Part shown: in pieces, positions 6,681-63,779 of the stretch
How the letters are laid out: the number at the start of each line of letters is the position of its first letter
Position numbering within the stretch: the first letter of the stretch is position 1
From: Isoetes taiwanensis
Lineage: Eukaryota; Streptophyta; Lycopodiopsida; Isoetales; Isoetaceae
Direction of reading: 5' to 3'
DNA length: 64,000 nucleotides
Assembly (NCBI GenBank): GCA_021234155.1
Contig: JAJEKV010000016.1
Location: 17,914,698 to 17,978,697, forward strand
Notes under the pieces: generated by a model
What the model saw: only the letters and a program-made list of their open reading frames with translations
What the model was told of the DNA's origin: nothing
The model's database searches: none
Program-made: the position numbers and the translations under genes

Positions 6681-8151
6681 CAGGGTAAATTTTAAGAGCA
6701 ATAATTTTTTATCACTAAAATTAAGGCTGGCTAAAGCTATAAGAATTCAAGGTCCTTGCAAAATTTTATGGCTAATCGCATTTATATGAAGTCTATTTTT
6801 TATTCTTCACATGGCGAAAGTAAGGAAATATTTTATTCCTCAAGTTTTAACTTTGGCGATTTTATCTAAATTTATAGTTTGGACCTTTCCTCTCGCAAAT
6901 GCCTAACGACCATACGGCCTATTATTTTAGAAAATACCAAATATTTGATATTTTATCTCATCTACTCACAAAGGATAAGTTGGTGAACCATTAAAGGACA
7001 TGGCGTCTTTAGAAGCATCATATGTATAGGGCATGATATGCATAGATTGTGAATGCTTGCTTAACAACAAAATGACATAGAGGTCGCCTGACGTATGGAA
7101 TGTTGGGAACTAAATATTTAATGAACCAAATATCATTATACACAGTTTTCCAAAATGTTGCATGTCATTTACATGTCATTTACATGCTCGATCGGATATT
7201 CGAATGGGATATTAGCCTTAGGGGGCGACCAATTTTCCCTAATCCTTCCATTCTAAAATGCCCGACTGCCTTATCAATTGATTTTTGGGTTGGAATAAAC
7301 TTCCAAATTCCTCATGCTAATTGCTAGGTTCACGAACGACATTTCCTTCAGAGCCAAAAAAACCGTCAATGTTAACTTTATTTGCAGGTCCACAGACCTC
7401 CAACTGCACCGATTTTCACGAATCCGACCTTGGGCGATTTGATCTTCATGACATAGATCTTTTACATGTAGTCTGAACCTGGCAAGGAATTATATTCAAG
7501 TTGCTGCAACTACCCTAAACACTGTAGACTCTATTACAGGGAAATTTGTGAGGCAAATTTGTGATTAAATAACAATGTCAAATGCGATGACAATATATGC
7601 AGAATAGTTTATGATTTCAATAGAGAACCTAACTTTCTGATACAACTAGCTTTTAAACTTTCTGATACAACTAGCTTATAAATAAGTGAATACTTCTGAT
7701 AACATTTCTTTGTGGTAGTGTTTAAGCATATTAGCATCAGAAATTTAAGCACATCGGTAAAGCACATTGCATTAACACAGATCTAGGAGTCTGCAAGATA
7801 GATTGCTATAGGTGCTGCAGAAAACAAGAGAGCCAAGATCATGCACAATAATGCATATTTAAATTTTGCAAGTGCTGCAAGAAAATAAAAGAGCCAAGAG
7901 CATAAACCATATGAATCTGCAAATGCATATTCAACACAAACTACAGCTCCATAATTCAAAATTCAAGATCTTCAAGAACAATCATTCTTTGTAAGTACAA
8001 TCATTATCATCTTCAAGAACAATCATTCTTTGCAAGAACCTCTTCAAGAACAATCATTCTTTGCATGTATTTCAACTTAAATAGCATTATCATGGTGCTC
8101 TTCAAGAACAGGAACACGATTTTCCTGTAAACATGACAGATATATTCATAC
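6681..8151. other. hAT left arm, non-coding
   Basis: This is the hAT 3' arm relative to its minus-strand transposase gene. No gene is visible. It contains local repeats: two copies of AACTTTCTGATACAACTAGC near 7630-7680 and three copies of CTTCAAGAACAATCATTCTT at about 7970-8065. Confidence 0.6.
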
Positions 8152-8155
8152 ATTA
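8152..8155 (+). other. Element A target-site duplication, left copy (ATTA)
   Basis: ATTA abuts the left terminal repeat and is repeated at 17809-17812 after the right one. Confidence 0.8.
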
Positions 8156-8176
8156 GGGTAAAAGCACGTTAGGGTG
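8156..8176 (+). repeat. Element A left terminal inverted repeat
   Basis: It starts GGGTAAAAGCACGTTAGGGT and is the exact reverse complement of 17788-17808. Beyond 21 bp the two ends diverge. Confidence 0.95.
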
Positions 8177-8563
8177 ATAAAATATTGGGTCATTTTAATA
8201 CATATACATTTTTAGAAATGTATAATAATTACTGCGAATTTTGGTTTTTTTTTTCGACCGAAAATAGGCATATCGAAAATTCCCTCCAATTCTTTCTTCC
8301 CCGTTCTTGTTTCTTTGTCATTTGATCTCTCTGCTTTTACCCTGCGATCCGGCACCTCGATCTCTTGCAAGCGACTAAAGCACTCTCTTCCGAAGTCGCT
8401 TGGCCATTCTCGACAAATCAAAGGTACAATCGTCTTCTTCCCTAGTTTTTTTCTTTCTGCTTTTAATTTATTACTTTAGGTTTTTGTTTACATGTGCAAG
8501 CTCAGATTGTTGCACCTTTAGGACAATTAAAAGATATTTCTTGTTGCATTGCAGGTCTAGACA

Positions 8564-9392
8564 ATGGCAAAGACACCAAAGAAGAGTGTTGCCCCTGCAT
8601 CAGTCCGAAAATCTCCTAGGGCTTCAAAAGCAGGGGACACATTTGAAGTCCGGAAGTCCCGGATGCGAAGAAGGAGGACACGATATTTTCCGCAAAAGGG
8701 ATCCGGCTAATATGAAATTCAAGGAAAAATTTGCGTAGTACAACTCTTTAGTGACGGGGTTTGGGGATCTAAGGAACCTACTGTGCGGGTACAAGGATGA
8801 GTCAGTGAAGTTGGAAGACCAGTGCAGAAATTTTTAAGTGGTATGAGTTTGCATTCGGTAGGAAAGATGTACGTAATCACTATGTTCCCCCAGTATTTTG
8901 CTAGAGCATTTGCCTTACACTTAAAAGGTGAATCGCTTGATTGGGATGATGTTAAAAAAACAGCCACGACTAAAAAGCAAGGTCAAAGAATCTGAGGTTT
9001 TGACCGGGGTTGTAAATATCAAGTCCAAAGAATGCCAAGGGCCACAAGTCCTATGATACTTTCTACAAAAAAGAGGATCTGGACAGTTTGAATGTATTTC
9101 TTGAGAGCAGATCCTCTTTGAAGGAAAGCATATGTAAGGAGATGCAGAATTTAAGGAGACGAGACTCAGCAGCTATAATGAGACTTTGAAGCATAGGGAA
9201 GGGGAAAGGGCAAGATATTCTAAGCTAGTCCATGAGGCCGAGACTAATTACTTGAATCTGATGTCAGAGTTGGAGGCATTTCAACAGCAGATGGATGGAA
9301 GTGACGGTAGTGCTATGAAGTTTGAGCACATAAAATGGAAGGTGGAGGATGCAATTGCTTGCTTGAGAAGAGCAAGCGGGGGCAGGATCTAG
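8564..9392 (+). pseudogene. Element A plus-strand gene, 5' part: basic N-terminus and coiled coil
   Basis: After a plausible acceptor (TTGCATTGCAG), an ATG at 8564 opens a Lys/Arg-rich segment (MAKTPKKSVAPASVRKSPRA) that stops at 8710. In other frames the region continues with ARAFALHLKGESLDWDDV near 8900, then a helical segment with heptad-like spacing at 9190-9392 (SKLVHEAETNYLNLMSELEA). More helix-like text follows to about 9530 (AKLSKEVEAKASELRQL). At least three frame changes make it non-functional as read. The basic start suggests a nuclear or DNA-binding protein. It probably belonged to the same transcription unit as the exons downstream, which is inferred from shared strand and order. 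Confidence 0.5.
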
Positions 9393-9779
9393 GCGAAGCT
9401 TAGCAAGGAAGTGGAAGCAAAAGCATCCGAGTTGAGGCAACTAGATTCCAACTCAATTTAAGGTCTTCAAAGAAGAGAGCAATTGAGGAGGGGGACACAA
9501 AGATTTTGGAGTTGAGGGAGTTCTTAGATCACTCCTCGGGTCCTTAGCTTGCAGCCTCCTCCTCTTTCTTTGGTTTCAAGCAGAGCGACCAAATGTGATT
9601 TTCAGTCCCGCACAAATTGTGAGCGTGTTTTGGTTCCTCCCAAAGTGGTATTGGCATCTTGCGCACATCCTTACGCCTATTATGTATCTCCTATCTTGCT
9701 AGCACAAGGAACAATCTACGGCAGTACCGAGTACTGCACATGGGATGTGAATCTACCTCGCGTGCATTGGGGCTGATTG

Positions 9780-10420
9780 GAAAAGGTAAGCATGCATAAT
9801 CGATTTCTTTCATGTCTTTCTTTATTAGTTCAGGTGTAAGATTGGTAGATGGATATTAGTTAGAAGTTGTGCATTGGTTGTGCATTAATTGTTCTGTAGT
9901 ATATTAATTACATTTGGGTTTTAAAATGTAGGTTGAAGTGAAGATTTGTAGGGTTGGATCGTTTTGCTTTTCTAGGCTGGTGTAAACATCATGTTAGTAC
10001 ATGCATATTATTAATGTGCATGATGTACAGTGTTGCCAGATAATATTGAGGAGTTACTTTTATATACTAAGAAAATAGGATAAGTAGGTAACTGCCTATG
10101 TGTACATTTGTATAACATGTGGTCTTCTACTGGGGGACATTTTGATACATGCTGTACTCTATGATACATCTTAATGCAATTACAATTTTCCAGTAAGCTT
10201 TTCTACAGTTGGCTCCAAATACATATATCTAATATATCTAATACAGCTACATGGAGGAGGCTTTCTACATTTGGATGTGGGTACATAAAACTGTACATAG
10301 TTCTGTAATACAGATACATGGAATACATTTGGAATTGGATTGTACATTGCTTTTTTGGATTGTACATTTCTTTCAGTCATCTAGTTATTATTGGTAATGC
10401 TTTCATTCTTGCAGGTGACA
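9780..10420. other. Intron-like AT-rich stretch of element A
   Basis: AT-rich with short imperfect repeats such as GATACATG and TTGTACAT. No gene is visible. It begins near a donor-like AAAAG|GTAAGC at 9785 and ends at TTGCAG|GTGACATG near 10417, so it may be an intron. Confidence 0.5.
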
Positions 10421-11448
10421 TGGGTAGTATAAAGAAGCCAGAGAAAGGTATGTGATATGTGGTTATGGTATTTTCATATGTATTTCAATTTCATCTCGTA
10501 TGCAGATGCCTAAGAACAAACGAGTAGATCCTCCCCGCAAAGACACTTGTTTTTTCAAGTTGTGTAGATGATTATTATGGAGGGAAGCATGATAAGTCAA
10601 CCCCGTCCACATCTAGGTCACCTCTGAACACATTCAACACATTTGTAGCAGAGCATGAGAGAGGAGGAAAAGGAACATCAAGTAAGTAATTAGTTTTAAA
10701 TGAATTTGCCGGGAGTTTATAAGGAAGCAAATTGAACTCATTTTTTAATAATGTATACTGCTTGTCACAAGCAAAGCTACAATTGTAGCTTCATATGCAC
10801 AACAAATTGAGCTCCTGAAGCAAAGGGCTGAATGTGGCAACACAGGTGTGTGTCCATATTAGTTTAATTTCTACATTTTCTTGATGTTTATGTTGTTGTT
10901 GACAATGAGTTATCTTGTAGTACTGGAACCAGCGAGCGAGGAGAACAATGAAGCCGTCTCTGACACTCTAAAGAAAAAAGATATTATTGTAGAGGTCTTG
11001 ACACTCCAAAAGAAAAAAAAGCTCTGCACAAATGTGCGAAAGGTATCAATTCTTAAGCCAATGCCACATCATCAGACCGAACTTGAAATGTTGTTTTCAA
11101 GTGGTAAGTCAAAAACTACTTATTGCATTTAGTTATTGCATGTTCATAAATTTTATTATTCGCAGAAACAGAGGAAACTAGTGGATCTATGGGCTTAGTT
11201 GAAACTACAATCGAAAAGATTGAAGAATCATGTAAGACAGGAACATATACAACTGGTACTGAAGAAATTTTAGTGGAGGATGTGGCTACAGATATGAAGC
11301 AGGTGGTTGTGGTGAAGCAAGAGAAGGAGGAATCTGAGGATAGAACGTCTACGATAGTGGTGTGAACGAAAAGAGTCAAGAAAAAAGAAAAGATACAAAG
11401 GTGTCGCCCAGCTAAGAGAACTAGAAGCCGGACATCGGTTGAGCAACT
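10418..11448 (+). CDS. Element A plus-strand gene, middle exons (low-complexity)
   Basis: Several short exon-like frames are separated by GT-AG introns: one at 10420-10450 (MGSIKKPEK), one around 10590-10680 (STPSTSRSPLNTFNTFVAEH), one near 10775-10845, one at 10921-11102 (VLEPASEENNEAVSDTLKKK) and one at 11166-11448. The last is acidic, then basic (KKEKIQRCRPAKRTRSRTS) and holds one in-frame TGA at 11363-11365. The final exon joins in frame to the peptidase exon at 11513 (GAG CAA CT|T GAC ATG). No fold is recognised; this looks like a disordered linker with nuclear-localisation-like basic runs. Confidence 0.45.
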
Positions 11449-11512
11449 GTAAGTGTAATTGGATTAGTAAATATGTGTTTTATGCTAGTTACCATTGATG
11501 CTTGGTTTGCAG

Positions 11513-14020
11513 TGACATGGATAACCTTCAGACAATGGTTCCATTCTATCCGTTCCAAGATGAACCTCTCATTAAGGTCCGCGAAATACGTGTGGAGACA
11601 TTGTTTAAAGATAGGTACATGTCTAACAGACATTTAGACATATTCGGAAGGTATGTGAGCAGCACATTGACATCCAAATGGCGAGATGTCTTCTTTTTCT
11701 TCCCTTCAGAAAACTTTTTGACTTATCGGGCAGCATTTAAAAGATTAGCCCTGGATGTTAATAGTATGGGACAGTTATGCAGAAGTGCAGTTGAGAAAGG
11801 GCTACAAGGCATTGTTGTTAGTAAATGCCAGTATATTATGGTTCCAGTTCAAGTTGAGGACCACCTTATCATGTTTTGGTGATTTTTGTTTTAGAGTCTT
11901 GCAAAAAATTGCGATACCACCTCAATGGCTTCTCCTGCAATTATTGTGTTGCACTCCATGGTTGGGTATAACAAATTGGACGACAAACTCCTAAATATGT
12001 GAGCATTTTCTTTCAGTATATGTACCACTGCTGCTTGCTTAAATCTTAGTTGCATGTTCTCATTTGTGTGTGCAGGCTTCATAAGGATGTCATCACATAT
12101 CTAACCAACTCTAGCTCACGTAGAGTTGAATTATATGTGAAGAATGCAGTGAAGAAGGAAACTATTCCAGAGGTTCCACAACAACCAGATAATGTAAGCT
12201 GCGGTCTTTATGTGATGGCCTTTATGCAAGCTTTTGTGGATGCCCAAGTGAATTCTAAAAGCATGGTGAGTTGTTCTTATATTTCACATAAATCTTTTGG
12301 GATGTTTTATTGTAGCGGATCTTAATTCTTGTGTTTGTTGCAGTTTTCATCAACATGGTTCGACAAGGATTTTGCACTTGGCAGAAGAAATGTATTAATA
12401 AAAGCCATGATTGAATATGGTTTGAGAAGAAGAGATGAGACAAAACAAGTTGTCACTGGGCATGGGCAGAAGAGTGGTAGTTAAACTCATTCCAACTTAT
12501 GGAATTTAAAGCTAATTGACTATTGTACTTTGAAATTTATTTGAATAAGAAATTGTTTGCAACGCTTTAATTTCTATCAAGGGTTAAAAACTAGAATTAG
12601 TTTAGACTTTCTGTCTTATCCTTAGGCTTGGTCAGGTTAGATGTATGGCTAACCTAACTGCCCTGGATTACTTACAGGGCTTATTATATTTGATCTCCAA
12701 GGCATTTTGGGTTACTATTGTAAATCAGCACCCAGTGACTATAATGGCACTCAAGTGCCAATCCAATTACCTGATGGAGTCTTCTTTTGTCGTCCATTGT
12801 CGAAATCATTGTTGTACTGGTGTTCCAACCATTGGGATTTGGCTGTTTGGTCAGATCTTCCCTTGGATGTTCTGACAGTCATTGTAGACAAGTTGTATGA
12901 GCAAGGCATACCAAGATTTAAATTCATTTATGGTGGCAATAGATGTTGGACCCTCTTCTTAGAGGCCAATGATGGGACAGACATATTTCTTTTCCCTTTG
13001 GATATTCCACTCCTCAAGTATCCAGAATACAGAAATAGATGTGTTATGATTACTGACCTTCCTTTCAAATGTATCTTCAATGAGGGTTGCTCTTGCTGCA
13101 GGCTAACTGGTGAAGACAAAGATTTGTGTTGGCTATTTGACTGGTTTGTAGGCTTGAAGAATGCAAATGACTTTACCACTTATGTCCAAGAGCATCAATT
13201 TGATACTTCTCGTGCATACAATGACACAATAGTGAAATGCATAAAATCTCAATATGGTGAAGACATTGATAGTTTATGGAGCTTTTGCAATAGAAGTTGC
13301 TTGCTAATTAAGAAGCCTAGCATCACAGTGAAGAGATTCACAATAATAGAAGAATCTAGTGAAGATGATGAAGGTGGGGTACAAGATGAGTGTGCTGGTA
13401 CATCAGATAGCAAACAAGTCGAGGACACGGGCACATCTTCGTGTATGTATCTAACTTAGGTAATACAATTATGCTTAGATGTTGTATGTTGTAGAGCTTT
13501 TGCAATACAGGCTGTATGTACATAACTTAGGTAATACAGTTAAGCTTTCACATGATATACTAATAATTTTGTATGCATTGTAGGTGTAAGGAATGATCTA
13601 CAAAACAAGTGTCAAATTCTTCAACCAGCTGAAGTAGATCTTCAACCAACTGATATAGAAGAAACAAATCTAAGTTCCCAATATGCTGGCCGGGGGACTA
13701 ATCCAAGGTCGAATACCATGCTTCCTGAGCTTTGGGAAATGGTTGAGAGAATCAGTGATTCAGATACTCGAAGCAATTTGCTAAATCTACTTGCAGTCCA
13801 AGGTTTACTACATAATCCTTGGGGGAGACCATCCTTTGCAGAAGTAGTTGATCAGCCAATAGGGTGGACCGGCCTTCCAATAGCCAGAGAATGCCCAACA
13901 GCAAGTGCTACTGCTGCAGCACATGTAAATCCTGAAAACCGTTGGAAGAAAGGCGTGCATGATGCAATAGTATTGAGATATTGTGTTCCAAATGACATAG
14001 TGATTAGGCACGCTTCTTAA
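11513..14020 (+). pseudogene. Ulp1-like cysteine peptidase joined to FCP1/HAD-like domain (element A)
   Basis: Exons read 11513-11883, about 11893-11998, 12076-12265, 12344-12476, 12678-13442 and 13584-14020. The introns from 11999 onward are GT-AG and phase-compatible. The first half resembles a Ulp1/C48 peptidase: His in VEDHL (about 11860), a Gln-Cys block PQQPDNVSCGLYVMAFM (about 12175-12225) and the tail WFDKDFALGRRNVLIKAM. The Asp expected in IIVLDS is His (VLHSM), and the frame breaks near 11880. The exon ending KSG joins directly to LIIFDLQGILGYYCK, an FCP1-like start in which DxDG has become DLQG. It is followed by FFCRPLSKSLLYWC, WDLAVWSD and KDLCWLFDWFVGL. The C-terminal exon (LPELWEMVERI, then HDAIVLRYCVPND) is unrecognised. 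Ulp1 enzymes cleave SUMO-like modifiers and FCP1-like HAD enzymes remove phosphates. The altered Asp residues suggest loss of both activities in this copy. Confidence 0.7.
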
Positions 14021-14229
14021 GTTATTAAGTGTGTACAATTGTACTATTTGCTCCGAAATATAATTATGTGTACCTTTTGCACTTGTCTACAATTTGAACT
14101 TCAACATGTTCCATGCTATATTTTACAAACCAGGTAGTTCACACAGTACAAACCACTGCAAATTCAATTCAATTCAAAAAGTAACACAATACAAAGCACT
14201 GCAAATTCAAAGCCTTCACCTAATCCAAG

Positions 14230-14640
14230 GCATCCACCATTTCGGGAAGACTTCCTAGCAACATCTCATGCACATCATCAGACAATGCAAAAGCTGCACT
14301 AGCACCTTTAACCACAGTGATTTATCTTCTTCATGGGAAATTTAGCTCAATAACAGGACTCTCACGGCACCACTACTTCTCTATCATCCAACGGCTTATA
14401 TTTGTTATGGCAACTTGGCAATTTCGATAATAGTAAGCTGATATGATCACGTCACACTGCATGATGCTCATTCTTGTAATCATCAATGACCATTTTGATC
14501 CAATACATGCTTTTCTCTAGTGCAAGCAAGAACATAGTATGTCACATCTTCCTCATTACCGGGAAGAGCAAAAGAAGCAAAATTATCACCAAAGCAGATC
14601 ACATCATGTAACTCCTCTACCTCATTTGCAAACATTGCAG
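14230..14640 (-). pseudogene. Element A transposase, C-terminal domain remnant
   Basis: Minus-strand frames contain DNFASFALPGNEEDVTYYVL followed by EKHVLDQNG (about 14490-14600) and, in another frame, ASAAFALSDDVHEMLLGSLP near 14240-14310. The first block aligns in pattern with VGDYFVSFTSPDNYERVSYY of element B (23371-23757), so both elements carry the same C-terminal domain. Stops and frameshifts are frequent. Its function is unknown. Confidence 0.55.
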
Positions 14641-14809
14641 TTTCTAGTTCTAATTACGTACCTTGACATGTGCACATGGGACTAGCTTCTTCAATGTCCA
14701 CTTTTCCACGGTGTTGAATAGACTCACATGCCGCCATTCAAAGTTTATGCGAATCTTTGCCAAAAACAAGATAGTGGTCTAACCATCGGTAAGGTTGGGT
14801 CCTCCGAAC

Positions 14810-15332
14810 TTATTGAAGATACACAGTGCCAGCTTTGGACACCGGGAAGGGTTGCACATCAAATGGCTTTGACCTGTCAATCTCAACCTCCTTCACTTCC
14901 CAATACACTCTACGAACTTGAGATTTCTTGTTTCTCAAAACAACACCAGCATCATGAGCACCCTTTATTTCAATCCCATGCTCTCTTCTTTTGCTCATTT
15001 TGGCCAAGAGTTGCTTGGCCTTGGCGACCTCTCCATCATGTTCCCCCTTCCCATGCCCCGATCAGAAGAAATTCCATTGTACCGAATGCCATCTTGACAA
15101 TGGTACCGCATATGAAGTAGAATGATCTTCTGGATTTGAACTGAGCAGCACAACCATCTGACCACACGAGATGATACCGCATGTGAGATCCTCCATTCTC
15201 TTTCAACCACTGAAGATGAAGTTGAAATGCATGTTGTACAAAATGTGTGTCATGACTTCTATCATCAGAAACATATAAGTGAACAGTCTTCTGCAACTTA
15301 CCATTTACCTTGAAGAGAGTGATGTGTACCAA
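14810..15332 (-). pseudogene. Element A transposase, catalytic core second half
   Basis: Reading the minus strand, ITLFKVNGKLQKTVHLYVSD leads to WSDGCAAQFKSRRSFYF (15129-15167 covers WSDGC to SR), then FF-stop-SGHGKGEHDG (about 15030-15070) and KQLLAKMSKREHGIEIKGAH. The Asp in WSDGC and the Asp in HGKGEHDG are candidates for the second and third metal-binding residues of a DDE/DDD nuclease. Element B keeps HGKGTHAGEG at the same place. A stop codon and a frame shift break this copy between the two motifs. The fold assignment is an inference from motif spacing and context. Confidence 0.65.
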
Positions 15333-16051
15333 AATAGTGATCCGGTGCGCATTCCAATGTTGGGTGACACTTCTTTGAAGGGCTGCAATGTGTAATTTTC
15401 TGCAAAGTCTACTACTGATATCACAGAATCATCTCTTAGACTCTGAATGCTTCTCCTAAATTCCTTGCTCTGCCAATGAGCTGCAAAGTTGTGATGCACA
15501 AACTTTTTCATGTGATCAAACATGGCAGATAGCATGAAAGGAGCATCTGTTTGCTTCTCCACCAATCTTAGTCTTCTAGAAGTGCCCTTCCTTGACTTCT
15601 CGTCCATATAACAGTAAGCCTGCCATTTAACATCATCTTCATTATTCTGATCAGTCTCTTTTGGACATAAGGGAATCTTTTGCTTACCACATTTTTCACA
15701 ATCCCCCCTTATGCACTTCAGATTGTGCCACTCTTCCCTTTCCTCTTTTTGGCAAACCATTTCTCTCCAAAGAGTGCTAACATTACAAAATGTAAGCTTT
15801 TGTGCCTGACAAACCCCATCATGTGTACCAACAGCACATACATCACAATTGCAATTGCAATTTATGTGAAACTTCAGCCTCATAGAGTTGAAAGCTTTTC
15901 TGAAATTCTCTGCTTGTTCATGCTTGACACAACAGCAAGTGTTTCTCTCCTTCAATTTCCTTATGCAACTTGGTTTCAGGTATTCGAACATTCTAATACC
16001 AACATCTGCATCTGGATTCTCCTCCACAAACTGCTCATACAGCTCAGCCTG
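15305..16051 (-). CDS. Element A transposase, Cys-rich and first catalytic motif
   Basis: This single long exon begins just after an acceptor-like site and reads AELYEQFVEENPDADVGIRM, then YLKPSCIRKLKERNTCCC, a Cys-rich block (CNCNCDVCAVGTHDGVCQ and CIRGDCEKCGKQ) likely to bind zinc, and GTSRRLRLVEKQ. It ends with HHNFAAHWQSKEFRRSIQSL and VISVVDFAENYTLQPFKEV. VVDFAENY has the beta-strand-then-acid form of a first DDE residue. Element B carries the same blocks in the same order (24564-25080). The frame is lost at 15305, where the catalytic core continues in another frame. Confidence 0.7.
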   Translation of the reverse strand, partial: QAELYEQFVEENPDADVGIRMFEYLKPSCIRKLKERNTCCCVKHEQAENFRKAFNSMRLKFHINCNCNCDVCAVGTHDGVCQAQKLTFCNVSTLWREMVCQKEEREEWHNLKCIRGDCEKCGKQKIPLCPKETDQNNEDDVKWQAYCYMDEKSRKGTSRRLRLVEKQTDAPFMLSAMFDHMKKFVHHNFAAHWQSKEFRRSIQSLRDDSVISVVDFAENYTLQPFKEVSPNIGMRTGSLFWYTSLSSR

Positions 16052-16780
16052 CACATTGCAAAAGAAAATATGTAAGTTGGAGAAGACTGTGCATTGAATA
16101 CCTTACATATCCAGTACATAAGTAAGAAATACTATGTATACCAGTACATATCAGTTGTACATGTAAAAAGATTTGATTGAATCTATACATATTCAGTACA
16201 TATGTACAGTAGATTATGTATAGTATCAATTTATAGCACATTTAATCCTACATCCTTACACTATGTACATATATATCACATATTATACATGAAATACTTC
16301 CAAGAGCAAGTAGATGACCCCATAAACCTCATTTACATGTATAATACATTAAGTAAAACAGACCGAAAAGGCTACATCAAAGCAAGTAAACTAAGATTGG
16401 CAAAGGAGTTCACTTCTGGCACATTTAATCTTACATCCTTACACTATGTACATATATATCACATAATATACATGAAATACTTCCAAGAGCAAGTAGATGA
16501 CCCCATAAACCTCATTTACATGTATAATACAGTAAGCAAAATAGACCGAAAAGGCTACATCAAAGCAAGTAAACTAAGATTAGTAGAGGAGTTCACATAT
16601 GTGCATGAAAATGTACATGAAAACAACAAAGAAACTGAAATGTAATAGTTTCTTTGACAAAAGCTTTAATACGAGGAATGTCAAGATCTTTGGATTGCCT
16701 CGCTTCTTTTTCCTCACATCCACTCAGACTTTGGTGAAACCTTGGTGTTGTTAAGCCCGGTGGATGACTTTTAGCTTGGT
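16051..16780 (-). other. Intron-like stretch of the element A minus gene
   Basis: The region between the N-terminal exon and the Cys-rich exon has no homologous coding text in element B. It holds a two-copy 183-bp tandem repeat (16235-16600) and many TACAT-rich short repeats. I read it as intron or inter-exon DNA. Confidence 0.5.
16235..16600 (+). repeat. 183-bp tandem duplication
   Basis: Two copies beginning GCACATTTAATC(C/T)TACATC start at 16236 and 16419. They differ at only a few positions. The 183-bp unit is 61 codons long, so an open frame runs through both copies on the plus strand, but that frame has no recognisable protein character. Confidence 0.9.
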
Positions 16781-17497
16781 TTATTCATCCAAACGATCAG
16801 ATCTAGCCTTCCTGCCTGCTAATGCCCAAATGTTTGAACCAGCAGTTGCCATTCTCTTTCTTCTGCTAGCAGCATATGAAAGATTTCGGGGATGGCATTT
16901 GAGCATCTTGCAAGCAATTCCCTTTTGCTTCAAATCACCATTTTTCCCCACAACCATTGATAAAACTGAGTGCTTGGCAGCCAATTTATCACCACTATTA
17001 GAGCATTTTACCTCTTCCAATCCATCTTTAAGGTTTTCTAAAATTGCATGCTTGACCACTGCTTGTGAAGGCAACCCAATCACAGGTTCAAAAAGCTCCA
17101 ATAGCATGTGATCTTGCAAGAATCTAGAAGCAAATAAGTACCTTTGATTAGGAGCCAGAGATTCAGCTTCTTTTCTCATAACAGTAACAGCATTTTGCAC
17201 ACTGGTCCTTATTTTTTTGGTAACATACCTTGAGGATGTACTACCCTTTTCAATTTCGCTATCATGCTCTGCCATCTTCTTTTTCTCTTTCTCATCTCTC
17301 CCACTTTCGAAATTACTGCATGCCACCTGTTGTTTACTCTTCACAATTTTGAATTCACCAGATGCCATCTGATGTTTGCCACATTCGGTTTCAAAATCAC
17401 CAGATTGCATGTTCTCCGATCCACATTCGGTTTCAAAATCACCGGTTGCATGTTTTTTCTGATCGCCACATTCAGTTTCAAAATCACCAGATTCCAT
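16781..17497 (-). CDS. Element A transposase, N-terminal exon with GDFETECG repeats
   Basis: From the ATG at 17497 the protein carries three near-identical GDFETECG repeats plus a fourth variant (GEFKIV) in the first 55 residues, spaced 15-17 residues apart. Next comes a charged stretch, then RYVTKKIRTSVQNAVTVMRK, KDGLEEVKCSNSGDKLAAKH with SVLSMVVG, and RRKRMATAGSNIWALAGRK. The part from RYVTK onward matches element B (25678-26240) block by block, so it is under shared ancestry; the GDFETECG repeats are not seen in B. The basic C-terminal half could bind the terminal repeats. No known domain is recognised. Confidence 0.7.
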   Translation of the reverse strand: MESGDFETECGDQKKHATGDFETECGSENMQSGDFETECGKHQMASGEFKIVKSKQQVACSNFESGRDEKEKKKMAEHDSEIEKGSTSSRYVTKKIRTSVQNAVTVMRKEAESLAPNQRYLFASRFLQDHMLLELFEPVIGLPSQAVVKHAILENLKDGLEEVKCSNSGDKLAAKHSVLSMVVGKNGDLKQKGIACKMLKCHPRNLSYAASRRKRMATAGSNIWALAGRKARSDRLDE

Positions 17498-17787
17498 GTT
17501 TCCTGATCCTGGAAAAAAATTCAAATTGTGTTCTACTTTCTTGGTTCAATCTGGGAATTTTCTTGGAAGGAAATTTTTCTGGAGGGAATTTTCCTGGAGG
17601 AAATTGGAGGGAGGAATTTCCTCCAGGAGTTTCGCATCAACCGCCGGCCTCTACTCGTCATAATTACAAACAAACGGGAATTTTGCCCCTTTTTAAATAT
17701 ATAAGACAAAATTTATACATGAAATAAGTACATTTAAAATTCAGCAACCCGTTCAAAAGTTTACATGAATTGCCCCCTAATGTATGA

Positions 17788-17808
17788 CACCCTAACGTGC
17801 TTTTACCC
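17788..17808 (-). repeat. Element A right terminal inverted repeat
   Basis: Reads CACCCTAACGTGCTTTTACC plus C, the exact reverse complement of 8156-8176, followed by ATTA. Confidence 0.95.
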
Positions 17809-18054
17809 ATTAGCATTTGAAGAAAAAAAGGGCAATCAGATTAACATACTTTCTGCCTTACAGATGTGCATGATTAACAAACAGATGTGCATGATCTGCA
17901 GCAAGTACAAATATGTATCAGACCATATTCTTCAAAGAGAAAGCAAGAGACAGTAAAAACAAAAGGGCTAAGATACCTTCACCTTAATTTATACCACCGA
18001 GTGCATATAAATTGAACAAAGTGTTGTCATCCTGCGCACTATTCACCTGCTCAT

Positions 18055-20569
18055 TCAATGATGTCTTGGATCTGTCACCTTCAATATGTGTTTTTGAGAC
18101 ACCGCGATGTTTGCAATCATCAAAATGAGACTTTTCATAAGGGAAATTATCCAAATCAAAATCACAACTGTATAAGCGCAGAGCTCAACCAAGCTGCCAT
18201 CCAATCTATTCCGTAGCTTATTTTTTATAAAGGTCATTGTACTAAAACACCTTTCATCCTCCACACTTCCAAGTATCATACATAAGCATAATTCGGATAA
18301 CTTAAAATATTCTGAAAGAGAAACACGTAACACGCTATTGGAACCTATCTTTTGCCAAAGGCGAGTTGGGGCTCCAAATTCTAAAGGATCCTCAAGTTCT
18401 TGGAACTGTTTGTACATTGTTTCACCAAAAAAATTTGATTGCACCTGTAGTTCTTTCCGATCCAAGATTCCATCAAGTGTCTCACCATCAACTATCTTGG
18501 GCATACAAAACTGCTCTTGTATAATTGCTGATTTCTTCACAAAATTTCTGGATATTGCAGAGCTGCCATGCACATTATTCCAAAATTGAGGAAACACAAT
18601 GCCAATAGCTTCTAGGACGTCACCATGGGGAAACCTTGAACACAATTCATTTGCCAAATTTCTCGCAACCTATATACACAGCCAACAAACATTAAACAGA
18701 TTTTTTAAACAACATTGACACTAATTCATTAAAACTTACTTGTTCCATGTGAAGCTTAACTTTGTCCATAAACACCTTCACATCAGCATTTTTGAAATCA
18801 CATTTCCGATAATGACCACCTCTGCCACTATTTTGCCTTACATACATCCGGATAAACTTACCTTTCACATGGATGCAAAGGATGCCACTGGGATCGTACC
18901 GTAAAAAGCTTGAAGGTGTTCCAATTGCTGCCATTTTATTCCATAAGTAAAAATGGTCTTTTTTGGACTGAAAACAAGTTTGTCCTGTTCTTATATTATT
19001 AGCATACATATGCTCAAGATCCGCCTGCATCATTTTTCTAGCCAATGTATACTCCGGTATAAAGATATTCCTGTCCTGTGAAATCTTTATCAAATAATTC
19101 AACTTTGATAAGAGCGGCTGCATTGCAAACAAAGTGAGAATAGTTTCAAAGTCTGCATCATTGTTAAAAGCTCATTTGCCTTTTCTGAAGTGCTACGATC
19201 TTCATCAAAACTCAGCTCATCTACTAAACCAATTAATGAGACAAACTCTTCACAAAGGCATTTGACAGGTCCATTTAAAGAAATCCAGCGTGTACTGACA
19301 TCCTTCAAAAGCTTTTTACCATCTGTCAACCCTTCGGCAAAAGCCTGAAATGCTGCACACCTTTGAGAACTCTTAGAAAAAAACTTATAAGATGTACGAA
19401 CGAGAATTTCTACCTTAGCAACATAAGGAGAATCTGAAATTGTTTTGTAAGCCAGATTTGTCCGATGACTCATGCAATGTATGATACTCATGTAAGGTGC
19501 AAGTTTACTTTGCAGCGCACCCAGTCCAGTTCTATTGCCTTGCATTATGGCAGCGCCACCAGCACCAAAACATATCAGTTTCTTGCTGCATTCCTTCTTG
19601 CTCAAACCAGCAACGTTAGATAAATTATCAACAAGCACATCAAACAATGTTTCTGCTGTAGCACTTAGACCAAGTTTTTGAATGCCTAGAAAGTAGGATT
19701 TACGCTCAAAATTCAGCATATAGATGCATTGCAACCCATGAAGTATTGTCAATTGCACTAACTTCGTCCATAGATAAGGATAGAAAATTAGCATTCTTTA
19801 GCACCAATCGGAGGTCTAACTTCAAAGCTTCATTCATGGAACATGCAAAATCCCATCCAGATGACTCACTCCAATGATAAATGGGACATGACGAAACTTT
19901 CTGGGCAAGTAAAAAATCGTGCATTTTTGGATAGTCCCTCATTGGTTTCCCATTTTTCAGCAAATGAAATATGCATCGCATTTGGACACTCTTAGCTTCA
20001 AAGTTCAGCTTGTCTTGCCTAGAAAGTGACATGCAACGGAGTGATTTTTTTCTGCTTTTTCTCAACCAATAACAACTCCTTTGTATACTTATCTACATAT
20101 TTTCTATGTTTGTTGTCTGGATCCCATTCAATAACCTCTTGCTGCTCACCATCTTTCCCTTGTGTAGAAAACCTCTTCTTACCATGGTGCTTCATGATAG
20201 TATCATATTTGCATTGCATAGTAATATCTTTTGAGCATGCCCATGTGCAAACCTTGCACCTCACCCACTCTTGGCCATCAATAATTGATTGTTCAATGTA
20301 AGGGAATTCTGTGACCCATTCTTCTCTGAAACAACGGCCAATAACCCATGAATTCTTTCTTTTCTTCCTCAAGCTCGCAGCAGTAAGAAGTGGTGCATCT
20401 TTTGAAGAGCGTCATCTGAAGACGTAGAAGAAACAAATGGCCCACTATTTGAAGTGATATGATTTGAAGGTTCCAAGCAATCATTACCAAGGTTTGCATC
20501 TGATGCACAACTAGGACGTACATCCTTAGGGGCAATTGCAAAATCACTAATCCTCCTCTGCGTTGACAT
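18055..20569 (-). pseudogene. hAT transposase pseudogene (zinc-finger/hAT dimerisation type)
   Basis: Read from 20569 downward, the blocks are: STQRRISDFAIAP; a BED-like zinc finger (WVRCKVCTWACSK, then IMKHHGKK); the first catalytic Asp in LSLSMDEVSAIDNTSWVAMH (about 19740-19790); CFGAGGAAIMQG with IHCMSHRTNLAY (about 19480-19570); TRWISLNG; and the C-terminal dimerisation motif LCMILGSVEDERCFSTMTF (about 18230-18300). The second catalytic Asp of the usual GADG is Gly here. Frames break near 20372, 20045, 19720, 19110 and 18690; the last may be an intron. It is not functional as read. It supplies the identity of the element bounded by 6681 and 21150. Confidence 0.85.
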
Positions 20570-21654: not shown

Positions 21655-21900
21655 CTTGAATCTTGAGACCTTCTCTTACAGTGTTTTTTACAGCTTGCAC
21701 TAAGTATAATAGTTTTGGAACTATATAAACAATATATTAATGTTTGTGTTTTAATCTGGTTCATGGATCCATTTTATAAGGACCATGACTTTTGAACAGT
21801 ATGCTTGGACATAAAAATATTTTCTGATTACATGAACATCACATTCTGATTACATTCAGTTTGCAAGTCCATGCCTTAGTGCATAGAAAAGTTACTTCAA
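21655..21900. other. Short 3' flank, no gene
   Basis: AT-rich sequence between the split gene's stop and the LINE. Nothing recognisable. Confidence 0.6.
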
Positions 21901-21903
21901 CAA

Positions 21904-23368
21904 CAGGTTAATGTATTACAGAGATTCTACATTGATCAATTGGAAGAATGGCTTGATAATCATGGTGGCGGAGGTCCACATTTGGCACACTATATCATTA
22001 GGCAACTTATGTATGCTGATGATGTTTCACTTCTGGCACATACCGCTGCTAGTATGCAGCAACATTTACATGCTCTGCACAATTTTTGTGAGAACACAGG
22101 TCTGCGTGTTAATCTCCAAAAGATCAAGCTTTTGGTAGTTCAATCTTCTCGTCACAATGTTCCCTCTATGCACTATGATAGCCGCGAAGTTGAAGTTGTA
22201 GATAGCTACAAGTATCTTGGTGTAGAATTCTGTAAGAACACACTTTGGGAACAGTGTACCAAGCGAGTGGCTGCTGGATGGAGAGCACTCTATGCAATGC
22301 AAAACAATTGTTTTCGTGCAGAAATTCATGATTGGCCACGGAAAGCCCACTTGTTTCAGGCTTTGGTAGAGCCTGTTTTACTGTATGGTTCTGAAGTGTG
22401 GGGGCCTGCCATTAGTGCTAGTGCTTGGGAGAGCTTGGAGCGGGTGCAAAAGTCATTTCTCACTTACAGCCTTGGAGTTAAAACAACGGTGCCCTATGCT
22501 ATTCTTTTACAAGAGACAGGTTTTTGGCCTCTTCAACATTCTGCCATGAAGCGCCATCTCCACTATATCTGCAAGGTGCACCACATGGATGATGTTAGGT
22601 ATCATGTTCTTGCACTTGCCATGGCTGAGTCTCCTCAGCGTTTGAAGCGATGTTGGAAAGAGCATTGCACTACATGGTTTACCCGTTGGGCTGTGCAACC
22701 AGAGCACTGCCTGATGCTTGCTCGTTCTGATCCTGAGCTTTTGCAACAATATCTCAATGCTCGTTTTTTTCAAAAGATATGGGACCCAGTTACTTTGGCC
22801 CAAGTGAAAACTGGTCATTATCATGCACACATAAATCCCACCTTGGCACCAGGGCCTCAAGCTTATTTGCTTGCTTCATTGTCCAGGAACAAGCTTGTAG
22901 CTATTGCATGAATTCGCACGGGGTCCCACAGGCTACGGATTGAGAAAGGTAGATGGGAGCGGCCGCAATTGCCGCGAGAAGCGAGACTATGTGCCTGTTG
23001 CCAGTTACAGGTTATTGAAGATGAAAGCCATACTCTTCTGAGTTGCCCTGCTTTGGAGATAGTCCGGAATCATTTTTTGACCTTAGCATTCTATTCCACG
23101 CTTCCACAACTTCTCAGAGCACCATCTGTACATGACTTGGCATTATACATACTTGAGGTTCTAGATAAACGTCTGCAATTACTGAGCCCTCAGTAGTCAT
23201 TATCTCCGCTTGTCTAGTATCATCATTACTGCAAAGGTTTTTCCCTTGAAAACCTTTCGAGGCAGGGGTTTTTTAATCCTAGTAGTAATTATTGTACTAG
23301 CCCATTGTATGGGTCCCATGACCTATTGGTCTCCGTGGACGTTAAAAAAACTATTCTATTCTATTCTA
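21904..23368 (+). mobile_element. 5'-truncated LINE (non-LTR retrotransposon)
   Basis: The ORF contains the RT active site LMYADDVSLLA (about 22005), then LRVNLQKIKLL, SYKYLGVEF, EPVLLYGSEVWGP and a C-terminal zinc knuckle (CACCQLQVIEDESHTLLSCP at about 22990-23050). An in-frame TGA at 22909-22911 interrupts the frame before the knuckle. The 5' two thirds are missing, typical of incomplete target-primed reverse transcription. The 3' end has a TTCTA repeat (ATTCTATTCTATTCTAC) that abuts element B. Confidence 0.9.
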
Positions 23369-23370
23369 CA

Positions 23371-23757
23371 ATCTCTGGCAAATTTTCCAGCATGCCAATA
23401 GTTAGTCAGTTCATATACATAAGATGTACCTTTAATCTTATGTTTGACTGGCTCCAATGGAAATTTCACCCCAATTACTGACTCGGGATGGACAAGAACT
23501 TTCTTTCCTTGAATAAGCATGTACTTTTGATGGCAATCAGGAATCAATTCAAAGTAGTTACCAGCTATAACTTCATTACCACAATAAAATTCATTTCCAT
23601 AGTCATCCTTGGTGTCTTCTTCGAGAGCATGTTTCACTTCTGTGCACTGGATGAGATAATAAGAGACCCTTTCATAATTGTCTGGGGATGTGAATGATAC
23701 AAAATAATCTCCAACCTGCACTGTCTCATCCACATTGTCCACGTCATTTGCCCACAA
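23371..23757 (-). pseudogene. Element B transposase, C-terminal domain
   Basis: An open frame reads VQVGDYFVSFTSPDNYERVS, then YCGNEVIAGNYFELIPD and YMLIQGKKVLVHPES. The pattern of short beta strands suggests a small globular domain such as a reader or SH3-like fold, but this is a guess. Element A has a degenerate equivalent at about 14490-14600. The LINE joins immediately after GKFARDC. Confidence 0.5.
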
Positions 23758-24119
23758 ATCCTCTCGCCTTCACCCATCTTCTTCAACATTGTCCCTGTTT
23801 GTAGGCTTTAGTTTTCTCAACTCCCACCGCCACAATGATCAGCATTCTCACAAGCGTGCCAATCAAAAATTGATGCATGCCTTACAAAAACATGAAAGAG
23901 ATCTACACATTAACTTTGTTGGATCATTTGGATCTATGGATGATACGCTAAATGAAGAGATTGCACCCTTTCACTTTGGAGCACATCAAATCTTTTGGGA
24001 ACGGTCAATGTCGGACACCTTCCAAAATACCCTTTCCACATCGTAAATTTTTCTCTTCAAGAACCTCACATGCGGCTTTCTGATTTTTTATCACTTTCCC
24101 ATCCTTTTTTTTTTGTTCG

Positions 24120-25080
24120 CCTCAAGCCATAGTTTTGGCTATGGCTCCTTCTCCGGCATGTGTGCCCTTCCCATGTCTTGAGCCAAAGAAATTCCAGGTG
24201 CATTCGATCTTATCTTTGTTGATGATACCTAGTTACATGATAGAAAGCTCTTCTCGACTTGAATTTGGTCTGCAAAGGCACACCCGGCCGGACCAAACTA
24301 AGTGGTATTTCATATGGCCAACACCATTTTCTCTCACCAATTGAGGTGCATAGTGAATGCTTTTTGTACAAAGTGAGTATCATGTATTTCGTCATCTGAA
24401 ATAAAGAAGTGCACACATTTCCTCATTTTACCCTGTACCTTGAACATCGTGATGCGGACCAATATGCTGATTTGTTCATTGTACCAATGTTGTGCTTGAA
24501 TCTCGTTGAATGGCTTAAAAGTATAATTCTCCGAGAAATCAACAACCGATAATACGTGTATCATCAATGAAGACTCTTCATGGATTCCTTGAATTGTTTG
24601 CTTTGCCAATGTGCCACAAAGTTATGATATACAAACTTCGACATATGATCAAACATGTTATCCAACATATTACTGGAGCTGCCTTTCTTGTCAATTAGCT
24701 TTAGTCTTCGTGAAGTTCCTTTCTTCCAGGGCTCATTAACGTAACCATAGACTTGCCAATCAAGCGTTTGATCAATCTGCTCATATTCTCTTGGACACAA
24801 CTCAATTAATTGTTTCCCACAATTTCCACAATCTCGATTTGATACATCGTAGCTTATGCCACTTTCGTTACTGCCTTTGCTCTCACACATACCATAGCCC
24901 TCCAAAATGTGCTAACATTATCAAATATCATGTTCTTGGCTTGACATATCCCAGCATGAGCTTCAGCTGCGCACACACCACAATTGCACGAACAGTTTTC
25001 ATGGAGTCTTGACCTCATCAAATTAAATGCCTGCTTGTACAAATCTGACGCAACAACATGTGTTTCTTTCCTTTAGCTTT
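24120..25080 (-). pseudogene. Element B transposase, Cys-rich and catalytic core
   Basis: Downward from 25080 the frames give LKPSCIRKLKER-like text, CNCGVCAAEAHAGICQAK, DCGNCGKQLIELCP, GTSRRLKLIDKKG, HHNF-like YHNFVAHWQSKQFKESM, VVDFSENYTFKPFNEI (about 24500-24550), the remnant LVWSGRVC...FKSRRAFYHV (24240-24300) and SRHGKGTHAGEGAIAKT (about 24130-24185). The first acid is kept. The second motif has lost SDG and the third has Ala where element A has Asp. Several frame breaks occur. This is the second independent copy that defines the family's motifs. Confidence 0.7.
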
Positions 25081-25199
25081 CTAATGCAAGAAGGTTTTAA
25101 GTATTCAAATTGCCTAAGCCCAATCCGAACCTCTGGATACTGATCCACAAAATTCTGGAATAATTCAACCTGTAAAATTACAGTGAAATAAAATTAGTC

Positions 25200-25240
25200 A
25201 CCTCATTACATTACATTACATTACATTACATTACATACAA
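25200..25240 (+). repeat. (TTACA)n microsatellite
   Basis: About seven units of ATTAC/TTACA in tandem, within the region between element B exons. Confidence 0.9.
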
Positions 25241-25677
25241 ATCTTTTACAACCTAAACTCCCATACATACATGTATATTTTGACATGAATTTTATTTCAT
25301 TTACTATGAAGTCACATAATTTCTTGACAATTAATACATCTCCACACTAATTTCTTCTTAGTTACTGCCTACATCTACAATACATCCAGAATATACATGT
25401 AAACAAATATACATGTACGTGTTGCCATGAAATAATTTGACATTTCCATGTAGAGCAAACTAATGCAGACTGCATCTATATTACATTCAAAAAGTAAAGA
25501 AATCTGTTACAAACTTTACATCAGTATTACAAAATAAAAAAACATCTTTATTCTGCAAAAAAAGATGCAATTACAGCTAAATTACAGTCGTACCTGTGTA
25601 ATGTCAATATATTGAATTGGTTGTGTCCTCTTCTTCATGACATCTCTAATTTTTGGTGAAACCTTTGAGTTATCTAA

Positions 25678-26324
25678 TCAAAACTGAGCAACCATATCCT
25701 TGATAGCCTGATCTATAGTATTTGTTCTTGGATTTCGACCTGCTAATGCCCACAGATTTGTTCCACCTAGTGACATTCTTTTCCTTCTCTCCACTGCTAG
25801 TTTCATAGTTCTAGCATGTATTTTTAGCAACTTAGCTGCTAGTGAAGTCTTCTGTAATTCTCCTTCCTCTCCAACCACCATAGATAGTACAGAATGCTTT
25901 GCAGCAAGTTTGTCATTGCTATTTGCATGTTTAACATCTTGGAGGCCATCCTTTAAATTCTTTACCAGATCTGTTTTCATGATAGCCTCTTGAATCTTTT
26001 GTCCTGCAATAAACTTCTTGCAAATATACTTTGCTGTTTTGGATTCAAATTAGATACCTCATTCATTATGAGATTTACAGCATCATTCACCTTTCTTCTA
26101 ATTGGCTTTGTCACGTATCCACCCCTACAACTGTTTCGATTTTCTTTGACTGCTTGTAACAGTGCTTTCCGAAACTTCATCAACAGGAGGATTGAAATCT
26201 CAACCTGATGCTGACCTCGAAGTGCTTGCATGAGAGTCCAATCCTTCTTCCATAGTTTCTTCTTCAACTGGTGCTTGAAGACATCGATCCATTCTGCAGA
26301 AAGGGGATACAACATCCTGCACAA
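25678..26324 (-). pseudogene. Element B transposase, N-terminal block
   Basis: Two frames together give GGYVTKPIRRKVNDAVNLIM, NPKQQSIFARSLLQDKRF, NLKDGLQDVKHANSNDKLAA, SVLSMVVGEEGELQK and RRKRMSLGGTNLWALAGRN. These match element A 16781-17290 in order and spacing. A frameshift lies at about 25978. The GDFETECG repeats seen in A are absent. Confidence 0.65.
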
Positions 26325-26684
26325 AAAATCAGATTATTAACCAGATTTGTATTACTGCTTGAAGGGATTTGTATTACTGTTGAAGGAAAGGGATTTCAAT
26401 TTCTTCAAGATACATTTGTTTCTTGAAATGCATTTGATTTAGGAGCAGGTATAATCGATTCGGGGCAAGATTTCCTTGAGATAGAATACGGAGCCATGTT
26501 TGATCGATTGAGGAAAGTTCAAAATGTGCGCCAAGATTTCGGGAGGATTTGGTATAATCATGGAGAATATTGTACGTCAACTGCCTTTATTAATGATAGG
26601 CAACTCCATGTAAAATTCAAAATGTACATTACAAATACTTTAACCCAGTTCAAATTTCTACATCAATATACAAAAAAATTCAAT

Positions 26685-26705
26685 CACCCTTTTATGCTTC
26701 TACCC
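26685..26705 (-). repeat. Element B right terminal repeat (degenerate)
   Basis: 16 of 21 positions match the element A repeat, including the outer TACCC and inner CACCCT. The next four bases are AATC. Confidence 0.6.
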
Positions 26706-27880: not shown

Positions 27881-29497
27881 TTAGCCTTTATGGTCTGCAA
27901 CCCCCACTAGGTTCTTCGCGGTCACTAGTTTGGGCTCAGACAACGCCTTTGTTAACATATCTGCCTGCTGAAGATGGGTGGGAATATATGTCACATTCAT
28001 CTCCCCCTTTTCCACTTCATCTCGTATGAAATGATGGTGAATGTCAATGTGCTTAGTTCTAGAGTGTTGAATTGGATTCTTCGTCATTGCCCCGCTCTTA
28101 TTATCACAGTACAAGACGATAGCTTGGTTAATTCCCCAATTCTTTAAGCATTCTACGCAGCCAAATTATTTCTGAAGCTGCCATGGACACCGCTACATAT
28201 TCTGCTTCTGCACTAGATTTGGCAACGCATTCTTGCTTTTTACTTGCCCATGATATTACTGCATCCCCAAGTTTGCACAAATAACCAGATGTGGACTTCC
28301 TGTCATTGATATCTCCTCCCCAATCTGCATCTGCATAACCAACCAATTTGTTCTCTGCACCCTTTGAAAAACAAATTCCGTGTGTTGCTGTTCCTTTTAA
28401 GTATCTGAGCACTCTTTTCGCTGCTACCCAATGCTGTATTCCAGGGTTATTGCAAAATCTGCTTAGCAAGTTGACCACATAAGTGATGTCTGGTCGAGTG
28501 CAGTTTGCAATGTATAACAAGCAACCAACCAATGATCTGTAAGGTCTCGCCTTCATTTCCTTAGTCTCCTTTGGGGTCTTAGGACACATATCTCCGCAGA
28601 TTCTCACTCCCGAAGCCATAGGTGTTTTTGTTGGATTGCATTCAAGCATCCTGAATTTAGCTAATACTCCCTTAATATTTTGTTCCTGCGTAAGATAGAG
28701 CAATCCCCGTTCTTTATCCCTACGAACTTCCATTTCTAGCAATTTCTCCAAATCTCCCAAGTCTGTCATCTGGAATCGACCATTCAGCAATGCTTTGCAA
28801 TCTATCAACAAACTTCTGTCATTGCTTACGATGACGCAATCATCCACATAGAGGGCCATAATCAGACATTTGTCCCCACTCCTTTTCATGTACAGATTAC
28901 CCTCAGTTCTTAACTTTGCAAATCCTGCAGAAATAAGGAACCTGTTTATGCACAAATACCACTGCCTGGCCACTTGCCTCAGTCCGTAAACCGCCTTTTT
29001 TAATTTACACACCATGTTCTGACCTTGTTCATAGCCTTGTGGCTGCTCCATGTATATTTCTTCGTCTAAATCCCCATTCAAGAACGCAGTTATAACATCC
29101 ATATGGTTTATCTCCATATCATTCTGCACTGCAACTGCAAGAAGTGTCCTCAGACTGGTTACTTTGACAATAGGTGAGAATGTATCCTTATAGTCCACGC
29201 CTTCTTCTTGAGTATACCCTTTTGCAACCAGCCTCGCTTTATACCGCTCTACTGATCCATCTGCTTTTCTTTTAATTTTAAAAAGCCATTTACTCCCCAC
29301 GACGTTCTTATCTTTTGGCCGCGATACGAGTTCATAGGTGCCCGTCCTTTTAAATGAATCTAATTCACTTTGCATGGCCTCTTTCCATCGATCTGCATCC
29401 TTTCTTTCCAGGGCTTCTTCCACTGTTTCCGGCTCCACTATACAAGACAATATCTTAGGCTTCCTTGGTCTGGTTGTCTTCCCACTTTCTGCCCTGT
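27881..29497 (-). pseudogene. Copia-2 RT-RNase H
   Basis: Reverse transcriptase blocks in order: KNVVGSKWLFKIKR, YKARLVAKGYTQEEGVDY, MDVITAFLNGDLDEEIYM, KLKKAVYGLRQ, and the catalytic LYVDDCVIVS. RNase H: GYADADWGGD, RKSTSGYL, SSAEAEYVAVS. A frameshift near 28125 separates the last part (LYCDNKSGAMTKNP to ADHKG). Apart from that shift and the MITE at its upstream edge, the coding sequence is well preserved, so the element is not old. Confidence 0.92.
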
Positions 29498-29518
29498 GGG
29501 TAAAAGCATGTTAGGGTG
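29498..29518 (+). repeat. MITE left terminal inverted repeat
   Basis: Starts GGGTAAAAGCATG; exact reverse complement of 29798-29818. Confidence 0.95.
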
Positions 29519-29797
29519 TCCCTTAAAAAGTATTATTTAGTGACCAAAAAAGTACCTAAAAAGGTACCCAGGACTGGGTACTGGGTACCTGTGTAATATC
29601 TCAATAAAAGGTACATTCTAGAACTTTTATATATATTTTGGTCTCCAGTAGCATTATCTTTATCTTAACCTTGAATATTAATGCGTCCTTGACTTTTATT
29701 TTGGACTTTTGTACTAGTTTTAATGAAAATAAAAATGAGAAAGTACCCAGTTCTGAAGTACCTAGTGTATGTACTTTTGCAGGTTCCAAAAGTGGTA

Positions 29798-29818
29798 CAC
29801 CCTAACATGCTTTTACCC
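29798..29818 (-). repeat. MITE right terminal inverted repeat
   Basis: Ends CATGCTTTTACCC; exact reverse complement of 29498-29518. Confidence 0.95.
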
Positions 29819-31415: not shown

Positions 31416-31429
31416 GTCAGGTGTTGACG

Positions 31430-32210
31430 GATTTTCCCCACAATCCCCAACAAGTGGCCTCGAGAGGCAAGAATCAAGATCAAATTTGATGCTGCAAGAT
31501 AAAGAATGAGAGGGCTGCTACAATGCAAAACAGAATGGATTAGAATGGATTGAACAGAAGCAAGAAATAAAGAAAAATCTTGGGCCCAAAATAATCTTCA
31601 ATCTATAAGAACAAAAGAAGAAAATACAATGTAAATAGCCCTCCATGCCTCTGAAACATGGAGGGCCTCTGAATCCATGATCAAGAGAGGTCTCTGAACC
31701 CTCTCAAGAATCGTGGATCAGGGGGAGAGGAGGAGCTCGTGCTCCTCATTTTTCTTTTATAATTCTTGCCCCTTAATCTCATCCATCCATCTCAACCACT
31801 TCATCTCCACCATCCTTTTTTGCCTCTTCATCTTTACCCTTCATTTCTGCCTCTTCATCCTAGCCTTAGATAATGTACCCCTCTTCAACCACTAACAAAA
31901 ATCTTAGAAGCCCTTAAATTTAAACAACTAGATCTAGGCCCTTTTATTTTTTGGTGCCTTAGACCTTTACAACATTTGGGCTTTATAATTGACCCCCCTT
32001 CCAATGGTTCTCTTTCTTTTCTCTTTTTTCATGTTGACCGGGTGCCAAAACCCCGGTCAACATCTCGCCCAAACAAAAAATGGGCCGGTCCCCTCGGCCC
32101 TCTTACTTCAAAGTTTTTCATATATTTAGTACAATAGTTGGTCCCTTAGACTCAATAAGGAACACAACCGAAGTTTTGATATCCGAGACTTCGAACTCGA
32201 AAAATGATCA
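31430..32210. other. Non-coding stretch with a hairpin
   Basis: No gene is supported. A perfect 10-bp inverted repeat, GCCCTCCATG and CATGGAGGGC, separated by 9 nt lies near 31639-31667. The region may be an LTR or UTR of another element; the junction with copia-2 is at about 31425. Confidence 0.55.
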
Positions 32211-41979: not shown

Positions 41980-42019
41980 ACCAAAAAGGTTTCCAACTCT
42001 TTTTCCAAGAAATTTGACT

Positions 42020-43378: not shown

Positions 43379-43391
43379 TTCAAACAAACTT

Positions 43392-63770: not shown

Positions 63771-63779
63771 CACCCTCTG

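Follow-up and report, generated by a model that had tools for sequence, protein, structure and literature searches.

A 64,000-nucleotide stretch of the Isoetes taiwanensis genome (assembly GCA_021234155.1, contig JAJEKV010000016.1, positions 17,914,698 to 17,978,697; the whole stretch is referred to here as the window) contains a DNA transposon of 9,653 bp at positions 8156-17808, with boundaries given by its inverted ends and the duplication beside them. There is high confidence that this element works like a cut-and-paste transposon with an Asp-Asp-Asp (DDD) transposase. The copy itself is best described as a dead autonomous copy of a transposon with terminal inverted repeats (TIRs), for which the Sola superfamily is the most likely home, by a modest preference. 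Its minus-strand gene encodes the transposase and its plus-strand block carries a clear Ulp1 protease domain and a piece that only suggests FCP1. The features of the element and of its relatives in the window are collected in Table 1.

Ends and target-site duplication

A first-pass annotation of this DNA, made by a model from the letters, had described perfect 21-bp inverted ends, the 4-bp duplication ATTA and a pair of gene blocks facing each other, and all three hold. The duplication can be read directly on either side of the element. Between the ends, Ulp1/FCP1-like frames on the plus strand (11499-14020) converge on a minus-strand transposase that runs from about 17497 down to 14490. The terminal bases give GGGTA ends, of the form 5'-GGG..CCC-3'. 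Inverted pairs of 21-mers lying no more than 15 kb apart numbered three in the window and zero in each of 30 random sequences made with the base-to-base transition frequencies of the window. When up to three mismatches were allowed, the 21-bp end matched the window four times against 0.00 expected, and these matches were the paired ends of the 9.65-kb element and those of a 321-bp element. A second, diverged element retains a right end, and the consensus ends of the three related elements read GGGTARAAGCA and then AGGGTG. A separate observation concerns the 13-mer TCATACATTAGGG, which is present twice in the window: at 8146-8158, spanning the left target site and the start of the end, and at 17775-17787, inverted and immediately inside the right end. 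Chance, target preference or nesting may lie behind this repeat.

The 321-bp element shares the ends with one mismatch in each and is inserted in a Copia polyprotein gene, where it separates RVT_2 from the polymerase SH3-like domain. It was excised in silico together with 0-9 flanking bases, and a single open frame was regained only at 1, 4 and 7. At 4 bp the flanks read CTGT and CTGC. A 4-bp duplication is thus supported, imperfectly, in this second insertion, because the frame is restored with 4 bases removed and three of the four flanking bases are alike. The Copia polyprotein that the insertion splits lies at 28128-31517 on the minus strand, and its pieces hold RVT_2, SH3-like, rve, Pol_BBD and gag_pre-integrs domains.

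Table 1. Coordinates of the 9.65-kb element, its parts and its relatives in the window.
Feature	Position	Strand	Details
Target-site duplication ATTA	8152-8155 (left), 17809-17812 (right)		perfect
Left TIR	8156-8176	+	21 bp, 21/21 complementary to 17788-17808
Right TIR	17788-17808	-	21 bp; complementarity with left TIR breaks first at base 22
Plus-strand gene block	8564-14020	+	possible ATG at 8564, then a decayed N-terminal region, fragments of Ulp1 type, one FCP1-like and one C-terminal fragment
Ulp1 (Peptidase_C48) domain, in pieces	11499-12480	+	Pfam PF02902
FCP1/NIF-like piece	12653-13459	+	Pfam PF03031, below cut-off
Transposase gene	14490-17497	-	exons: N-terminal 17497-16784; main from about 16048; C-terminal remnant 14638-14490
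Tandem duplication	16231-16596		183 bp, 95% alike; in inferred intron between first and main transposase exons
Second, diverged and decayed element	23386-26705	-	lacks its left part; transposase at 23386-26117 and right TIR at 26685-26705
BAH-like C-terminal module of second transposase	23401-23745	-
Non-autonomous relative, like a miniature inverted-repeat transposable element	29498-29818		321 bp

The transposase and its relatives

The joined transposase query retrieved 71 relatives at E<=0.01 among 898 candidates (best E 1.3e-85), one of them a protein from Taxus chinensis; some of the 71 are short. Relatives aligned by tblastn to 14492-16069 of the first element. The gene is disrupted there by a TGA and by two breaks in the reading frame, near 15355 and near 15060. 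Neither this damage nor the tandem duplication upstream of it was part of the first-pass annotation. Conserved residues were counted in a 29-row alignment of relatives and are numbered as in P0001. D222, D270, H274, D275, D305 and D346 are invariant, and D222, D305 and D346 form an Asp-Asp-Asp triad kept in 29/29 rows, with spacings of 82-94 and 40-72 residues (the second being 40-48 in 28/29). In the Isoetes copy the motifs around all three Asp remain legible despite the damage. Motifs of the type DF(S/A)xNY, WSDG and HGKGxxDG occur in 64, 65 and 50 of the 71 relatives respectively, and Cys/His clusters are found both N-terminal to the core (44-49, 70-87 and 106-135) and C-terminal to it (427-460). 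Conserved aromatic residues occur in the tail, near 522-523 and 557-558.

The predicted structure of one relative shows an integrase/mariner-type core with the triad placed as in RNase-H-like transposases. A catalytic fold like that of retroviral integrases and RNase H, by which DDE/D transposases are recognised, is predicted for the family. The C-terminal module of the protein, again as a predicted fold, found its nearest neighbours among the matches listed mostly in BAH chromatin readers, at modest scores; the tail may be a chromatin reader.

These proteins get no Pfam family name, since all 71 relatives lack a precomputed Pfam domain. In a scan of 29 members with E up to 1, any one Pfam family matched at most 3 of them; the transposase alignments found no sequence relative of solved structure, and a viral fold library gave no match at E<=0.001. 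A search for relatives in DNA contigs gave 15 pattern matches in viral contigs and 126 in genome contigs, none of them a relative, so that the ends and neighbouring genes described here come from this window.

The second element in the window belongs to the same family. Two minus-strand segments, 23386-25187 and 25585-25980, are matched by transposase relatives, and 25708-26117 aligns with exon A of the first element. Over 339 columns the first and second transposases share 58% identity, and in the tree they pair with 100% support in the Shimodaira-Hasegawa-like approximate likelihood ratio test (SH-aLRT). This copy carries many frame breaks and stops, and 5 of the 21 bases of its right TIR are changed. 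Its left end was not found in bases 5-24000, where, apart from the end of the first element, the best candidates carried 7/21 mismatches and were not accepted. On the left of the surviving piece the truncated element is adjoined by a plus-strand RVT_1 frame (21880-22911, E 2.6e-8), which by eye we take to be the 3' part of a long interspersed nuclear element (LINE).

The plus-strand block

The plus-strand block was read from a three-frame translation in which intron joins are inferred, and its frames are heavily broken. The first-pass annotation had proposed here an Ulp1-FCP1 accessory protein, of which the Ulp1 part stands. Peptidase_C48 was matched at E 8.7e-8 by 12050-12325 alone and at 9.6e-9 by the joined pieces, with a score of 35.8 bits against a curated cut-off of 20.7. 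The stretch PQQPDNVSCG presumably surrounds the catalytic Gln and Cys. Comparison with solved chains gave nine weak matches; of these, yeast Ulp2 scored E 0.087 and a papain-like protease of a virus E 0.086. A clear Ulp1 protease domain in the block is therefore supported by the profile match.

The FCP1 part did not hold up in the same way. The NIF profile scored below its cut-off (15.7 against 21.8 bits; E 0.012 for the piece alone and 0.037 in the joined protein). Phosphatases of the FCP1/NIF type usually carry the motif DxD, as DxDx(T/V); at this position the piece reads DLQ (DLQGI). Two matches to solved chains were at chance level. An FCP1 identity is thus weakly suggested, and a phosphatase fold, if present, may be inactive, because the score is under the cut-off and the acid motif is DLQ. 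A putative intron at about 12477-12677 would join the Ulp1 and FCP1-like pieces in frame.

The Ulp1-FCP1 protein does not emerge as a conserved accessory, since none of 4038 candidates was related to it at E<=0.01. This count, the broken frames and the absence of any match to the plus-strand pieces elsewhere in the window would all agree with a captured host sequence that is no working accessory gene, inside a transposon otherwise as described. Against this, Ginger1, Mutator and CACTA elements are all known to carry Ulp1 domains, and a role for Ulp1 in transposition is suggested in a passage of the Ginger paper (passages of PMC2836005 and PMC2528002). The absence of Ulp1 from the second element says nothing either way, because the left part of that element is missing. 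Capture is a real possibility, though less probable than not. No paper was found that joins Ulp1 and FCP1 with a DNA transposon superfamily, or that links Sola with Ulp1 in plant transposons, which does not in itself show that such links are unpublished.

Superfamily placement

Sola is described in passages of a plant-transposon review (PMC10741241) as having a DDD transposase, a 4-bp duplication and TIRs of 11-1124 bp, in elements mostly of 2-9 kb with some above 15 kb. The same passages report it from a moss, and it has been annotated in a fern (in a passage of PMC6890710). The Isoetes element resembles Sola (Sola1-3) in the invariant triad of its relatives, in a 4-bp duplication seen at two insertions, perfect in one and imperfect at the 321-bp relative, and in a TIR length within range; at 9,653 bp it is slightly above the usual size, and the ranges for TIR length and size are a loose criterion. 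It differs in its BAH-like tail and its Ulp1-FCP1 neighbour, neither of which is mentioned for Sola in the passages concerned (PMC10741241, PMC6890710). Membership of Sola, matched by printed description, is likely but not proven. Of the earlier proposal of a distinct TIR superfamily or a deep branch of one, the TIR transposon stands; a separate superfamily is not needed, because the DDD triad, 4-bp duplication, 21-bp TIR and length of about 10 kb fit the description of Sola.

It is possible, but distinctly less probable than membership of Sola, that the element belongs to an independent superfamily, widespread among eukaryotes and still without a name, that merely shares DDD and 4-bp duplications with Sola. 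The lack of a common Pfam family or of a solved sequence relative would be consistent with this, as would the several deep groups in the transposase tree of 73 rows and the conserved Cys clusters, which, like the BAH-like tail, go unmentioned for Sola in the passages of the review (PMC10741241). However, the structural traits that can be compared fit Sola. The missing Pfam match also says little, because Pfam may lack a model for many families of transposases.

A branch of Kolobok, or of another superfamily with the C/DxxH motif (hAT, MuDR, P, Dada), is very improbable. Kolobok also gives 4-bp duplications and has lineages with extra accessory proteins (passages of PMC9587614), one passage prints 4-10 bp as a joint range covering hAT, Kolobok, P and MuDR, and the conserved SDDxxHD stretch of the present family has D-x-x-H spacing. 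But this stretch lies ahead of the predicted second Asp, and C/DxxH between the second and last acids is found in only 3/29 members. Kolobok is further described in passages of the same source as having a TTAA target and a last catalytic E (PMC9587614), whereas here the third acid is D throughout and the duplications are ATTA and, at the 321-bp relative, CTGT/CTGC.

The first-pass annotation had also judged CACTA, Mutator and hAT to be misfits, and the comparison agrees. CACTA needs CACTA/CACTG ends and a 3-bp duplication, and the element has neither. Mutator fails on C/DxxH; its duplication is printed as 7-12 bp for Mutator-like elements (MULEs), but a joint range of 4-10 bp is given for MuDR with IS256, and it is 4 bp here. 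hAT fails on the same motif and on its expected duplication, given with P as about 8 bp in one passage and within the 4-10 bp of the wider group in another. piggyBac needs 5'-CC..GG-3' termini and is likewise rejected. Finally, that the ends and duplication are a product of chance or assembly is refuted by the random sequences and by three elements with related ends inside one 64-kb window, even though the duplication is perfect in one copy only.

Other features of the window

Frames at 18055-19797 on the minus strand look by eye like a hAT transposase; three pieces of them gave no Pfam match. A long Copia frame of 967 amino acids lies at 39127-43492 on the minus strand, with what by eye is a gag-like frame alongside. 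It is about 32-42% identical to named plant proteins, none of them close among the best 120 of 1973 matches. G+C content is 58% at 62001-64000 and 36-47% in the other 2-kb steps.

Proposed mechanism and significance

In an intact copy the Cys-rich N-terminal modules would bind the 21-bp ends, and the DDD core (D222, D305 and D346) would cut the ends and join them to the target strands with a 4-bp stagger. The BAH-like tail might dock the complex on nucleosomes and so steer or license insertion, while the Ulp1 protein might remove SUMO, or a tag like it, from host factors at the complex. An intact copy located elsewhere would have mobilised the 321-bp element in trans. A broader proposal is that an unnamed superfamily found across eukaryotes (or a deep branch of Sola) has its own BAH histone-reader tail that aims integration by chromatin marks, to which a plant lineage has added a SUMO-protease/phosphatase-like helper gene; this we regard as rather doubtful. 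Should the tail prove a true BAH reader, the family would give a testable example of histone marks being read by a domain built into a cut-and-paste transposase. Sola is seemingly uncommon in flowering plants, according to a passage of the plant-transposon review (PMC10741241).

Comparison with known systems

By its predicted fold, the transposase tail has candidate counterparts in the BAH domains of EBS, SHL, ZMET2, DNMT1 and ORC1. A histone reader built into a transposase would parallel the chromodomains that some retrotransposon integrases carry. In the literature, among the matches listed, 'BAH domain' stood in a single paper, for DNA methyltransferases, which does not show a BAH-like transposase tail to be unpublished. 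The Ulp1 gene would add a further transposon group with a SUMO-type protease, beside Ginger1, Mutator and CACTA. The CACTA-ULP and MULE-ULP elements of plants have transposases other than that of the Isoetes element. They are similar in the Ulp1-like region that adjoins the transposase (passages of PMC2528002) and differ in the ends and 3-bp duplication of the former and the 7-12 bp duplication of the latter (passages of PMC10741241). Ginger1 comes near in its 4-bp duplication and in a transposase with Ulp1 attached, in one family also with a PHD finger; passages of the same paper (PMC2836005) give it a GPY/F integrase, CCGG or CCGT targets and TGTNR ends, where the Isoetes element has ATTA and GGGTA, and by target and ends it was rejected as the parent group.
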